DNA from: Mycolicibacterium fluoranthenivorans
Lineage (GTDB): Bacteria > Actinomycetota > Actinomycetes > Mycobacteriales > Mycobacteriaceae
DNA: 64,000 nucleotides
Direction of reading: 5' to 3'
NCBI RefSeq assembly: GCF_011758805.1
Contig: NZ_JAANOW010000001.1
Coordinates: 930,001-994,000 of the forward strand
Below are positions 2,276 to 37,648 of this stretch, piece after piece. A program made the position numbers and the translations under genes. Under the pieces are notes generated by a model that saw only the letters and a list, made by a program, of their open reading frames with translations, made no database searches and had not been told where the DNA came from. The first letter of the stretch is position 1. Each line of letters begins with the position of its first letter.

Positions 2276-5092
2276 TCAGGGGACCGGAACGGGTTCGTTG
2301 AGCCGCCGGAAGATGCGCTCGGGAGTCAACGGCAGCTCGCGAAACCGTATCCCGGTCGCGTCGTACAGGGCGTTGGCCAGCGCCGGCGCCACCGGGTTGA
2401 TACAGCATTCGGCCATCCCCTTGGACCGCATCGGTCCGACGGAATCGGTGGAGGGGACCAGTAGCACCTCGGTGCGTGGTGCGTCGGCATAGGTGGGAAT
2501 GCGGTAGTTGCGCAGGTTCGGATTGGTCATCACACCGTCGGCGTCGACATGGTGGTTCTCCGTCAGCACGAAGCCGATACCCTGCGCCACACCGCCTTCC
2601 ACCTGTCCACGGACCTGAGCCGGATTGATCACCACCCCGGCGTCGGTGGCCTGCACGCTGTACAGGATGCGGATCTCCCCGGTGACCCGGTGCACCGCGA
2701 TGCGGAACCCGTGGGTGTTGGACGTGACGCTGCGCGGCGACCCGTACGCCTTGCGGGCCTCGGTGAACCGGATACCCCGCTCGCGGCCGGCCGCCAGAAT
2801 CTCGGTCAGGAGCAGCCGGGTACCCGCGCAGTCCACCCCGTCGTCGAGCAGGACACAGTCGGCGACCGGCACCCCGGTATGCGACGCGGCGAAGCCCCGC
2901 AGCCGGTCCCGCAGGGCGAGGGCGGCCCGGTCCACCGCGTTACCGGCGACGAAAAGCCCGGCGCTGGCGAACGCCCCGGTGTCGAAGCCGGTCCGGTCCG
3001 TATCGGACTGCACCAGGTGGATGCGCGACGGTGTGGTGCCCAGCCGGGTGGCGGCGATCTGCACGTGCGCGGTGGAGGTGCCCTCACCGAATTCGACGGT
3101 GCCGACCGCGATCTGGTAGCTGCCGTCGTCACCCAAGGTGGCCCAGGCCTCCGAGATGTGCTCGGTGGGCGGGGCGGTCTCGTGCAGCGATGTCGCGGTG
3201 CCGACCCCGACCAGCCAGTCCGGGCCCATCGGCGGACCGTCTGCGTTGCGGGTCAGTGCCGCGTCCACCAGGTCGATGCACGCGGCGATGCCGTCCTCGG
3301 TGAACTCGACGTCGTCGGGATGGTCGTCCAGGGCCAGCAACGCATCCCCCGGCCGCACGATGTTGCGGCGGCGCAGCTCCAGTGGGTCGAGGCGCAGCTT
3401 CACGGCCAGTTCGTGGATCGCGGACTCCACGGCGAACGCCGGCTGTGTCATACCGTAGCCGCGTAGGGCACCGCTGGGCACCGTGTTGGTGTACACCGAG
3501 TAGGCATCGAATTTCTTGTTGGCACAACGGTACAACGCGATGGCGGCGGCCGCGGCGAACAACGTCTCCCCGCCGTGGTTGCCGTAGGCGCCGGTATTGG
3601 ACAGGTTGCGGAACTGGAATGCGGTCAGGGTGCCGTCGGCCTTCGCGCCGAGTTTCACCGTCACCTTCATCGGATGCCGGGGGGAGGCGGTGGTGAACTC
3701 CTCCTCACGGGTGTACTCGAAACTCACCGGCCGGCCGGTATCGAGCGCGGCCAACGCGGCCAGATCCTCGGAGATCACTTCCTGCTTGCCGCCGAAGCCA
3801 CCGCCGACCCGCATGCAGAACACCCGTACTTGGTCGGGGCGCAGGTCGAACAGGTGTGACAGTTTCACCTTCGCGATCGACGGCGACTGGGAGGCGGTGC
3901 GCACCACCAGCCTGATGTTCTTCCCGTCGCTTCGCTCGCCCCTGATGTTCTTCCCGTCGCTTCGCTCGCCCCTGAGGTCTTCCCCGTCGCTTCGCTCGCC
4001 CCTGACGTCTTCCCCGTCGCTGCGCTCGACCCAGGCGATGGACCCGTGCGTCTCCAGGTGCACATGCGCCACGCGCGGGGAGAAGTAGGTGGCCTCGTGG
4101 ATCACGTCGGCCTCGGCGAAACCGGCGTCCACATCGCCGATCTGGCCGTGCAGCTCGAGCAGGACGTTGCGCTCCGGGTCGCGCACGAACGGATCGTCGG
4201 AGCCGTGCAGCTGCGGTGCCCCGTCCGCCATCGCCTGCTCCGGGTCGAACACCGCGGGCAGCACCTCGTATTCGACGGCCACCCGGCGGCAGCCCTCCTC
4301 GGCGGCGGCGACGGAATCGGCCAGCACCGCGACCACCCGCTGCCCGACGAACCGCATCACGTTGTCCAGGATGTAGGTGTCATCGGGGTCGACCAGATGA
4401 TCGGTGTGGATGGCGGTGGTGAACCGTTTGCGCGGCACGTCTTTCCAGGTGTAGACCCGGTGCACTCCGGGTACCGCCAGCGCGGCGGTGGTGTCGATGG
4501 ACACGAGGCGGGCGTGCGCGTGTGGCGAGTGCAGCACCTTCAGGTGCAGCAGTCCGTCGATGGCGGTGTCCATGGTGAACTCGGCCCGTCCCGTCACCAC
4601 GTCCCGGCCCGCGGGGGCGCCCACGCTGGCACCCACCGCGTCGCCGGGTGCGGCCTCCTCGACTCCCACCCGCCCGTGCACCGCGTCTTCGATGGCCCGG
4701 TAACCGGTGCAGCGGCACAGATTCCCCTTCAGCGCGCGGGGCAGATCCTGGCACTGTTCCTCGGTGAGTGCGGCCGAGGTCATGATCATCCCGGCGGTGC
4801 AGAATCCGCACTGAAATCCCGGGGCGTCGAGGAACTGGCGCTGCATCGGGTGTAGATCGTCCGGGGTGCCCAGCCCTTCGATGGTGGTGACCGCACGACC
4901 GTCGGCCCGGAACGCCGGGGTGATACAACTGTGCACCGGGTTGCCGTCCAGCCACACCGTGCAGGCGCCGCAGTCACCGGCATCGCAACCCTTTTTCACC
5001 CCGTGCCAGCCGAGCGAACGCACGAAGGTGCGCAGGCACTGACCGGGTTGCGGTGCGGCGTCGAACGATCGGCCGTTGACGGTGTAGGTCAT
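2276..5092 (-). CDS. Xanthine dehydrogenase-type fused [2Fe-2S]/molybdopterin subunit
   Basis: The 938-residue product fuses two subunits that are often separate. Residues 1-150 hold the plant-type [2Fe-2S] ligands (CDAGDCGAC) and the second cluster (CGFC, CRCTGYR). The aldehyde oxidase/xanthine dehydrogenase hammerhead domain follows, then the molybdopterin domain with VGGGFGGKQ. Near the end KGMAECCINP carries the glutamate expected at the active base position. The FAD subunit is the upstream gene, overlapping by ATGA. With guanine deaminase divergent from it, xanthine or hypoxanthine is the likely substrate; another N-heterocycle or aldehyde is possible. AGGAG sits 8 bases before the ATG. 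Residues about 355-394 are four tandem ten-residue units of the form GERSDG(E/K)(D/N)xR inserted in a surface-loop position, unlike the family. Confidence 0.9.
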   Translation of the reverse strand: MTYTVNGRSFDAAPQPGQCLRTFVRSLGWHGVKKGCDAGDCGACTVWLDGNPVHSCITPAFRADGRAVTTIEGLGTPDDLHPMQRQFLDAPGFQCGFCTAGMIMTSAALTEEQCQDLPRALKGNLCRCTGYRAIEDAVHGRVGVEEAAPGDAVGASVGAPAGRDVVTGRAEFTMDTAIDGLLHLKVLHSPHAHARLVSIDTTAALAVPGVHRVYTWKDVPRKRFTTAIHTDHLVDPDDTYILDNVMRFVGQRVVAVLADSVAAAEEGCRRVAVEYEVLPAVFDPEQAMADGAPQLHGSDDPFVRDPERNVLLELHGQIGDVDAGFAEADVIHEATYFSPRVAHVHLETHGSIAWVERSDGEDVRGERSDGEDLRGERSDGKNIRGERSDGKNIRLVVRTASQSPSIAKVKLSHLFDLRPDQVRVFCMRVGGGFGGKQEVISEDLAALAALDTGRPVSFEYTREEEFTTASPRHPMKVTVKLGAKADGTLTAFQFRNLSNTGAYGNHGGETLFAAAAAIALYRCANKKFDAYSVYTNTVPSGALRGYGMTQPAFAVESAIHELAVKLRLDPLELRRRNIVRPGDALLALDDHPDDVEFTEDGIAACIDLVDAALTRNADGPPMGPDWLVGVGTATSLHETAPPTEHISEAWATLGDDGSYQIAVGTVEFGEGTSTAHVQIAATRLGTTPSRIHLVQSDTDRTGFDTGAFASAGLFVAGNAVDRAALALRDRLRGFAASHTGVPVADCVLLDDGVDCAGTRLLLTEILAAGRERGIRFTEARKAYGSPRSVTSNTHGFRIAVHRVTGEIRILYSVQATDAGVVINPAQVRGQVEGGVAQGIGFVLTENHHVDADGVMTNPNLRNYRIPTYADAPRTEVLLVPSTDSVGPMRSKGMAECCINPVAPALANALYDATGIRFRELPLTPERIFRRLNEPVPVP
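3911..4030 (-). repeat. Four-copy 30-bp in-frame tandem repeat inside the molybdenum subunit gene
   Basis: Four exact 30-base units lie at 3911-3940, 3941-3970, 3971-4000 and 4001-4030. The first two are identical and the others differ at a few bases. On the coding strand each unit encodes ERSDG(E/K)(D/N)(V/L/I)RG. The shared core on the plus strand is CCCGTCGCTTCGCTCGCC, whose complement contains GCGAAGC, a heptamer known to form an exceptionally stable DNA mini-hairpin. The same core occurs once more in the P450 gene at 37205-37223. Confidence 0.95.
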
Positions 5093-13080: not shown

Positions 13081-13484
13081 TGAGCGCGCCGGTGATCGAC
13101 CTGGCCGGGTTCGACGACCCCGAGGGTGTCGCGGCGCTCCCGCGGTCCAACGGCGAGTTGGTGTTCGATGCGCCTTGGCAGGGGCGGCTTTTCGGGCTCG
13201 TGGTGCATCTCTGCAGGGCGGGTGCGTTCGAATGGGATGAGTTCAAGGCTCATCTGATCGCGGCCATCGACGATTCGGGAATCGACGAAACATGCGATCC
13301 CGCAGTGTATTACCGGCAGTTCGGGGAGGCCTTCTGTCGCCTCGCCGCGGAGAAGGACTTCTTCGACGCGCAGGCATTCGAGCAGCGGACGGTGCTGGAG
13401 GCGCAGCGGCTGTCGCACGATGACCATGACCATGACCACGACCATGACCATGATCACGGCCATGACCACCACCACGGCCACTGA
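13080..13484 (+). CDS. Nitrile hydratase accessory protein with histidine-rich tail
   Basis: The 134-residue protein aligns with the nitrile hydratase accessory/activator family (LPR..., VFDAPWQGRLFGLVVHL, GAFEWDEFKAHLI, VYYRQFGEAFCRLAAEKDFF). Such proteins escort cobalt and the alpha subunit during assembly. The last 22 residues contain 12 histidines, mostly alternating with aspartate, encoded by CATGAC-type repeats at about 13415-13481. I know of no such tail as a constant family feature; it looks like a metal store or cobalt-binding extension. The ATG at 13080 overlaps the nthA stop. The repeat could have expanded by slippage. Confidence 0.88.
   Translation: MSAPVIDLAGFDDPEGVAALPRSNGELVFDAPWQGRLFGLVVHLCRAGAFEWDEFKAHLIAAIDDSGIDETCDPAVYYRQFGEAFCRLAAEKDFFDAQAFEQRTVLEAQRLSHDDHDHDHDHDHDHGHDHHHGH
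13415..13481 (+). repeat. CATGAC-type short tandem repeats encoding the His-Asp tail
   Basis: Hexamer units GACCAT and GACCAC alternate through the 3' end of the accessory gene, producing His-Asp dipeptides. Codons vary between CAT and CAC, so the tract is an expanded but partly diverged microsatellite-like repeat kept in frame. Confidence 0.85.
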
Positions 13485-36391: not shown

Positions 36392-37648
36392 TCACCCCTT
36401 CTCATCCCTCCACGTCACTGCCAACGAACGTAGTCCGTAGATGAAGTGGAACGACCGGAATTCGACATCGGCGAAATCCTCGGCCAGCTCCAGTCCGGGA
36501 AACCGGCGGAACAACGCCGGGAACGCGATACGCATCTCCATCCGGGCCAGCGGCGCACCCAGGCAGTGGTGCACGCCGTGGCCGAAGGCGAGGTGCCCCG
36601 GCGCGCCGCGGCGCACGTCGAGAACATCGGGGTCGGCGACGAACCCGGGGTCCCGATTGCCCGACGGCAGCGAGGCGAACACCAGGTTGCCCGCCGGAAT
36701 CACTGTCCCGGCCACCTCGACATCGGCGGTGGTGAACCGCGGAATCGCGTGCTGTACCACCGACAGCCAGCGCAGCAGTTCCTCGATGGCGGGTGCGACG
36801 GCGTCGGGATCGTCGCGGATCAACGCCAGTTGGTCAGGGTGGCGCAGCAACGCCAGCGTGCCCAGCCCCAGCATGTTCGACGTGGTCTCGTGGCCGGCCA
36901 GCAACAGCAGACCGGCGATGCCGACCAGTTCGTCGTCGGTCAGTTCGGTGCCGTGCTCGCGGATCAGCATGCCGAGGATGTCCTCGCCGGGAGTGCGTCG
37001 AGCGGTGAGTACCAGCCCCCGCATGTAATCGCGGCTTTCGCGCTGCAACGTCATCCGCTGCGCGATCGGCAGCGACAGGTCGAGCTGGCGCCCCGAGCGT
37101 TCCTGGAAGTCGGCGCGGTCCTCGTACGGCACGCCGAGCAGCTCGCAGATCACCAGCGACGGTATGGGCAGCGCGAATTCGGAGATCAGATCTGTGCTTG
37201 ATCCCCCGTCGCTTCGCTCGCCCCCGACTGGCGCCGCTGCCGCAGCCATCGCGTCCAACCGCTGGTCGACGATCTCGGTGATCCGCGGCTCCAGCCGCTT
37301 CATCCGGCGGATGGTGAACTCCGGGGTGAGGAATCGGCGCAGCCGTTGATGCTCCGGCGGATCCTGCGCCAGCAGATTGCCCGCCCGCGCACTGGCCTGC
37401 TCCTCCACCGAGACCTCCGGTGCCCCGGGCAGGGTGAAACCGGGCGGTCGGCTGTTGGAGAAGTGCTCGTGATCAGCGAGGACGGCCTTGACGTCGTCGT
37501 GCCGGGTGATCAGGTAAGCCCGGTTGCCCAGCGGGCCGGTGACGGACTGCACGCCCGCCGAATCCCGGAGGGCGGCCAGTTCTGGTGTTGGGTCGAAGCC
37601 GTTGCGCCGCATGTGCACCGGCAGTCTCGGCTCCTCGGTGAGGGTCAT
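36392..37648 (-). CDS. Cytochrome P450
   Basis: The 418-residue P450 has the I-helix AGHETT, the ExxR (EELLRW), RFTTAD, and the haem-binding FGHGVHHCLGAPLARME. It should hydroxylate a lipid, sterol-derived or xenobiotic substrate using the adjacent ferredoxin. Around residues 142-149, the sequence GGERSDGGSS interrupts the otherwise regular AAAxP...DLISEFALPIPS region. This is the same GERSDG element as in the molybdenum subunit gene. The gene starts at the ATG at 37648, and the ferredoxin gene overlaps its end. Confidence 0.93.
   Translation of the reverse strand: MTLTEEPRLPVHMRRNGFDPTPELAALRDSAGVQSVTGPLGNRAYLITRHDDVKAVLADHEHFSNSRPPGFTLPGAPEVSVEEQASARAGNLLAQDPPEHQRLRRFLTPEFTIRRMKRLEPRITEIVDQRLDAMAAAAAPVGGERSDGGSSTDLISEFALPIPSLVICELLGVPYEDRADFQERSGRQLDLSLPIAQRMTLQRESRDYMRGLVLTARRTPGEDILGMLIREHGTELTDDELVGIAGLLLLAGHETTSNMLGLGTLALLRHPDQLALIRDDPDAVAPAIEELLRWLSVVQHAIPRFTTADVEVAGTVIPAGNLVFASLPSGNRDPGFVADPDVLDVRRGAPGHLAFGHGVHHCLGAPLARMEMRIAFPALFRRFPGLELAEDFADVEFRSFHFIYGLRSLAVTWRDEKG
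37205..37223 (-). repeat. Single GERSDG element inside the P450 gene
   Basis: CCCGTCGCTTCGCTCGCCC on the plus strand is identical over 18 bases to the core of the tandem repeat at 3911-4030. It is in frame and gives GERSDG in both proteins, which are otherwise unrelated. Spread of a short palindrome-like element into coding regions is the simplest reading. Confidence 0.8.

Follow-up and report, generated by a model that had tools for sequence, protein, structure and literature searches.

The closest described systems share some of the properties of the repeat reported here. REP and REPIN sequences, which go with RAYT (Y1) transposases, are short, high-copy and hairpin-bearing and have no open reading frame. 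Our repeat has all of these features; it differs in that its own genome has no Y1 match, its arrays are direct and tandem without inverted pairs within 300 bp, it is frequent in genes, and, unlike in the REP/RAYT system, an imperfect palindrome is no better than chance. Unlike classical insertion sequences and MITEs, it shows no fixed-length target duplication. In excerpts of PMC3914561 the MIRUs measure 46–101 bp and occupy 41 loci in M. tuberculosis H37Rv. As described there, they resemble our repeat in being dispersed over a mycobacterial chromosome as tandem, minisatellite-like units of varying copy number; ours is set apart, by description and not by sequence, by its unit of about 30 bp (27–33), its 23-bp core, its 66 examined clusters and its presence in unrelated metabolic genes as well. 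The Rickettsia palindromic elements are about 150 bp and lie in frame in unrelated metabolic genes with a conserved peptide, according to excerpts of PMC10969869. By that partial account our repeat is like them in its in-frame insertion, with a conserved peptide, into unrelated protein genes, and unlike these elements (palindromic by name) in being about 30 bp long, non-palindromic and tandem-prone, with 44 of 66 clusters outside genes or at their ends. The repeat thus resembles a tiny MIRU-like minisatellite that inserts into proteins as the Rickettsia elements do, and it lacks features by which both are defined (length, palindrome).

The window, a stretch of 64,000 nucleotides of M. fluoranthenivorans DNA, carries the repeat in two genes. 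In what follows G numbers denote genomes and L numbers loci, and the genome of origin (6.41 Mb, 6 contigs) is G000. The features are:

37205..37222, minus strand: core of the P450 repeat, the 18-mer CCCGTCGCTTCGCTCGCC (coding strand GGCGAGCGAAGCGACGGG, residues GERSDG)
36392..37648, minus strand: cytochrome P450 gene, 418 aa, host of the insertion (Pfam p450, 1.6e-31)
37193..37246, minus strand: P450 segment A135-T152, which includes the 33-bp insertion (54 bp, compared with 21 bp in G234)
3923..3940, minus strand: exact core in the molybdenum enzyme array (motif search of the window)
3953..3970, minus strand: exact core in the same array, 30 bp on (motif search of the window)
3983..4000, minus strand: exact core in the same array, a further 30 bp on (motif search of the window)
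4013..4030, minus strand: degenerate core with two mismatches and a GCGCAGC kernel (motif search of the window)
3911..4032, minus strand: tandem array in the molybdenum gene, period 30, 4.1 copies (tandem repeat analysis)
2276..5092, minus strand: molybdenum hydroxylase-like gene of 938 aa whose repeat linker is 40 residues long (open reading frame and homologue comparison)

In the window CCCGTCGCTTCGCTCGCC therefore occurs once exactly in the P450 gene, and three times exactly plus once with two mismatches in the molybdenum gene; shuffled windows gave a mean of 0.54 matches with up to three mismatches, and 0 of 100 shuffles reached five. The initial annotation had reported that the P450 element equals the molybdenum gene core base for base, which we confirm, except that its end falls at 37222 and not 37223; by eye the identity of the two copies extends to 20–21 bases. 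The P450 translation reads ...AAAAAPVGGERSDGGSSTDLISEF, with GGERSDGG beginning at residue 142, and the reading frame of this copy is that of the GERSDG units in the molybdenum gene.

The genome of origin contains 79 exact 18-mers and none of the reversed pattern; with the ninth base left as N and up to two mismatches allowed, the counts are 173 and 15. Of 248 genomes in the genus, our own included, 119 have exact copies, with counts up to 103 (G070), and the other 129 have none; the reversed control was 0 in every genome. G234, the nearest sampled relative by its P450 gene (83%), has 47 copies, and G239, the next (78%), has none. An order-level sample of 160 genomes yielded eight positives, all from our own genus or from a second genus in its family, the latter represented by G324 (31 copies) and G317 (one); the exact core was found in 0 of 139 genomes from other families of the order, and the reversed controls were 0 there too. 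These counts rule out a chance product of high-GC codon use. The repeat is a real dispersed family of mycobacteria, and apparently an undescribed one, since a full-text literature search, in a collection from which subscription journals are mostly absent, returned no published description. Its closest printed trace, in excerpts of PMC10117815, is rep-PCR primer 3 of M. intracellulare, taken from an unnamed repeat, a 50-bp sequence in pbpA; it has 11 bases, GAGCGAAGCGA, in common with the kernel defined below and its flanks differ, and those excerpts contain no in-frame, array or mobility analysis. Because the number of exact copies varies within one genus, from 0 to 103, a search for the responsible gene is feasible.

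By sequence comparison, the repeat in both genes of the window is an insertion. No core with up to two mismatches is present inside the P450 gene of any of 80 named relatives (labelled almost all Mycobacterium or Mycolicibacterium), and so it is not ancestral in the P450 family; the 80 loci contain just two core matches (in L063 and in L098), both in a different gene about 1.9 kb upstream. Segment A135-T152 is 33 bp longer than in G234, and both PDB relatives with an alignment shown have an 11-residue gap at this point. Among the 120 molybdenum enzyme homologues listed, 103 could be parsed at the site (17 could not), and in 102 of these the linker has 5 residues, compared with 40 in our protein; the one exception, in Mycolicibacterium sp. 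Y3, has 20. The earlier view of a small dispersed element lying in frame in unrelated genes is thus borne out, both by these two insertions and by the genome-wide count.

We then compared filled sites with empty alleles in relatives, 28 sites of our own genome in G234 and G239 and 26 sites of G198 in G096 and G187. At L235 and L242 of G198 the two alleles differ by 30 bp and are otherwise unchanged between the flanking anchors (flanks 98% and 96%). In G096, 12 of the 26 sites are empty with flanks of 94–99%, and the differences are 30 bp (L235, L242, L243, L250, L258), 33 bp (L236, L255), 20 bp (L245), 60 bp (two-unit L248 and L251), 63 bp (two-unit L239) and 67 bp (L241, two degenerate units). 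Twelve are still filled (L233, L234, L237, L240, L244, L246, L253, L254, L257, L259, L260, L261), some of them degenerate and L246 with a single unit; at L262 the array is shorter by one unit, and L256 shows part of a core. Against the more distant G187 the differences are 30 bp (L233 and L259, at 90%, and L235, L242, L258), 60 bp (L248), 33 bp (L236, L250, L255), 29 bp (L256) and 19 bp (L245), with 21 bp at L253 and 9 bp at L261 in changed surroundings. Our own genome against G234 and G239 (76–91%) gives 30 bp at L131, L134, L143, L151 and L152, and in some comparisons at L130 and L137; 33 bp at L138 (position 7615) and L154, and in one comparison at L124 and L150; 60 or 54 bp at L145 (two units), 78 bp at L028 (three) and 108 bp at L148 (four); and 19–27, 36 or 45 bp at L004, L022, L027, L122, L123, L124, L126 and L142 (24 bp at L142). 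L020 and L128 gave no alignment. Two loci labelled M. iranicum (L098 and L106, 88.7% over 5.2 kb) differ by exactly 30 bp. In most empty-allele comparisons the insert is therefore 27–33 bp long, or about 30 bp.

Some of these differences may run in the other direction. Three sites carry the element at the same place in our genome and G198 and are empty in G234 and G239: L124/L257 (aroE-like), L126/L259 (the gap-pgk gap) and L028/L258 (monooxygenase-like), the last also empty in G096 and G187. Such sites may reflect loss in parallel or more than one insertion at the same spot; since the nearer relatives are the empty ones, parallel loss is probably common and some apparent insertions may be losses. 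Partial cores are kept in some empty alleles (L233 in G187, M. iranicum H39), which argues that loss happens as well. The number of units also varies at shared sites (L004, L127, L237, L246, L262): L004 has one where L165 of G234 has two, and L127 has two where L163 has one, so that L004 and L127 are possible VNTR typing markers in environmental mycobacteria.

The anatomy of the repeat was taken from 66 clusters of our own genome among the matches listed; seven N-variant sites lie outside this set. The conserved part is CCGG-GGCGAGCGNAGCGACGGG-RRA, about 23 bases long with CCGG weak, and a C/C/G signal at +9 to +11 continues the 30-bp register. An insert of about 30 bp thus combines this conserved core of some 23 bp with variable bases, and tandem arrays are frequent. 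Their spacing is mostly 30 bp, and 27–33 bp overall except for one of 90: inside predicted genes it is 30 in 17 of 18 cases, outside genes 31 (five), 33 (two), 30 (two), 32 (one) and 27 (one), and in edge clusters 30 (three) and 90 (one). The wider range outside genes suggests that the unit is by itself about 30–31 bp and that reading frames select 30. Between relatives, array length varies in full units of about 30 bp.

The kernel of the repeat is GCGNAGC, in which N is the variable base of the repeat. Excerpts of PMC4686876 describe GCGNAGC as a GNA mini-hairpin, with loops GNA or GNNA and any N, and give a melting temperature of 78°C for GCGAAGC. In 304 kb of our own sequence (twenty stretches at even spacing, together with the window, itself selected because of the finding) GAGCGAAGCGAC occurs nine times exactly and seven times as a one-base variant, five of the seven varying at N; the reversed control gave 0 exact and two variants, and another word 0 exact and eight variants spread over seven positions. 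In the collected cores (own genome, G198, G034, G324) N is A in 158, C in 20, G in 19 and T in one. Because N is the third base of an Arg codon in the GERSDG frame, part of this variation can be synonymous drift. The element had been called palindromic, which our folding does not support: typed composite units (DNA on both strands, and one unit as RNA on both strands) gave no better folding than their shuffles did (z between 0.16 and 1.01), with fold parameters that have no special GNA-loop term that we know of, and the hairpin content is limited to the 7-base GCGNAGC mini-hairpin.

Placement was assessed against gene calls from a simple home-made gene finder, with no curated annotation. Forty of the 66 clusters are inside genes, 18 of them within 60 bp of a gene end, and 26 are outside genes or on an edge, against an intergenic background of 10.3% in twenty 12-kb stretches of our own genome (binomial 5.5e-10). 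This is not what would be expected of an element that spreads through coding DNA in particular, as had been proposed. The recommended check of strand and frame showed a bias: deep in genes there are 17 sense and 5 antisense clusters (p 0.017), with sense frames GERSDG 10, ASEATG 7 and RAKRR 0. Near gene ends 11 are sense and 7 antisense (5, 5 and 1 in the same three frames). For clusters outside genes, orientation splits 13:13 with the left neighbour as reference and 16:10 with the right one; the latter would allow a mild sense preference there. As orientation outside genes is about even and one sense frame goes unused, the sense bias deep in genes is best read as mainly selection on the encoded peptide. 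Among the matches listed, a hand count on the C1 arm right of dnaA gives about 27 clusters in one orientation and 10 in the other, which may be explicable by gene orientation alone. The 28 of 66 clusters that lie sense in genes amount to some thirty predicted genes, each gaining about 10 residues; some of these hosts, which we take to be AroA, AroE and Gnd, read like core metabolism. The repeat is in effect a natural insertion-scanning experiment that marks places in enzymes that tolerate insertion.

Strong conservation of the core and the many copies near gene ends might also be expected of a functional DNA signal under selection, such as a protein-binding or uptake site, and not of a mobile repeat. 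A signal would not readily be missing from 129 of 248 congeneric genomes, or differ so sharply among near relatives (none in G239, 47 in G234, 79 in our own); in addition, copies originate by insertion of about 30 bp and not by point change, and between genes any orientation preference is unclear. We consider such a signal extremely improbable.

We favor, at a probability of about 0.5, a high-copy, very short interspersed repeat whose arrays arise by slippage, whose survival is governed by purifying selection and which spreads as a single strand marked by the mini-hairpin. Replication slippage would alter the number of units in arrays. Under purifying selection, copies would persist in intergenic DNA, close to the ends of genes or in loops; those deep in genes would mostly be sense copies in the GERSDG and ASEATG frames with lengths in multiples of three. 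For spread, the GCGNAGC ultra-stable DNA mini-hairpin may serve as the handle, and some enzyme or repair route may move the element in the form of a short, folded single strand, without a fixed target duplication. The evidence for the single-strand step is one kernel statistic, the five of seven variants at N; evidence against the explanation as a whole is that whole units fold like shuffles and that lengths of 20 (L245), 24 (L142), 29 (L256), 33 bp and others occur besides 30.

The junctions show no fixed target duplication: overlaps are 1 base at L235, 0 at L242, 2 at the M. iranicum loci and 15 at L243. At L243 the element is flanked in the filled site by a perfect direct repeat of 15 bp, a pattern more in keeping with duplication than with blunt insertion. 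A duplication signal at a shift of 30 is weak: z is 1.8 with the 38 single copies and 2.7 with all 66 clusters. The near-absence of overlap at the 30-bp inserts L235 and L242 is also what one might see if fragments of about 30 nucleotides, protected from nucleases by the mini-hairpin, were captured as filler at double-strand breaks by nonhomologous end joining (Ku/LigD), a pathway that mycobacteria have. Fragments with this mini-hairpin are remarkably nuclease-resistant in excerpts of PMC4686876. Captured fragments should bring donor flanks with them, however, and a full-length donor was found for 0 of 6 inserts, so we regard filler capture as decidedly unlikely.

New copies might instead be made from existing ones by template switching or gene conversion, primed by short homology in the target. 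The P450 copy (window 37193–37246) and L017 (G000 C1:1309005–1309054) are alike in their flanks on both sides of the core, with a flank score of 15, the best of 561 own-genome pairs, and 88% identity over 50 bases including the core; flank pairs in G198 reach 16 (two copies of one locus) and 15. By a second measure, however, the P450-L017 pair scores 13, which 3 of 1221 between-genome pairs reach too. Among 34 own and 36 G198 isolated copies, flank similarity is 2.39 and 2.42 within genomes and 2.40 between them, and 5.83 and 5.91 against 5.84 when one-base offsets are allowed and known orthologous pairs removed. Downstream linkers pooled from our genome and G198 (orthologous sites included) exceed column shuffles by 3.5–4.5 sd, and those of G198 alone by about 2 sd, but our own linkers alone are not above shuffles and pooled upstream linkers are only 1 sd above. 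For six recent G198 inserts, one other locus (L256) matches at 94% over 33 columns and three more at 90–93% over 29–31 columns; none of the six has a second full-length match, and the longest exact partial match is 28 bases. Parts of the core in the empty alleles noted above might have primed such copying. At 30 empty sites, though, the match to the element was 5.13, compared with 4.97 ± 0.20 elsewhere in the loci (p 0.22; one relative per site, after removal of relatives with core pieces and of comparisons in which the alleles differed by under 18 bp or over 30 bp remained between anchors). Copying from other copies is thus an unlikely source of the inserts.

A short, high-copy repeat with a mini-hairpin could also be a non-autonomous element moved in trans by a REP-associated (RAYT) or IS200/IS605 Y1 transposase. 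A PF01797 match is present in the genome with most copies, G070 (103), and also in G037 (10 copies) and G002 (7). Our own genome, with 79 copies, has none; PF01797 is found in 21 of 118 genomes of the genus, of which the majority have few copies or none; and G096 (50), G112 (37), G090 (31) and G034 (22), very probably searched, are not among the 21. No inverted core pairs within 300 bp occur in the own and G198 loci examined. A resident enzyme in our genome is contradicted by these results, while a lost or plasmid-borne one falls outside them; overall we find movement by a Y1 transposase very improbable.

No mobilising gene was found when our genome was searched for Y1 (PF01797) and 60 of its loci were compared for a parent element. 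In that all-versus-all comparison the 45 of 925 matches listed are mostly arrays, and the non-array ones among them (L130/L156, L133/L134, L027/L153, L023/L145) do not span the core. As to a vehicle, the 138-bp array has no match in plasmids or phages, and the exact motif occurs in one contig of the viral_contigs set (L353:12042–12059, IMGVR_UViG_3300015204_000021). The direct question is then what moves a 30-bp DNA. We suggest, tentatively and as a doubtful case, that the repeat may represent a new class of mobile DNA, a unit of about 30 bp that would be recognised as single-stranded DNA through GCGNAGC, be inserted by some enzyme with neither a fixed target duplication nor donor flanks and with no homology at the target, and comprise several kernel-sharing mycobacterial subfamilies.

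Two further repeats were seen. At L229:1780–1906 (G000 C1, about 3,201,779–3,201,905) is a sister repeat, a 35-bp array of 3.6 copies that has the GAGCGAAGCGAC kernel and different flanks, AGGAGCGAAGCGACCCGGGAATTGGCACGGCGGGC. At 13420–13480 of the window there is a short tandem repeat with periods of 6 and 18 bp (ATGACC; GACCATGACCATGACCAC), which is unrelated to the element of about 30 bp.
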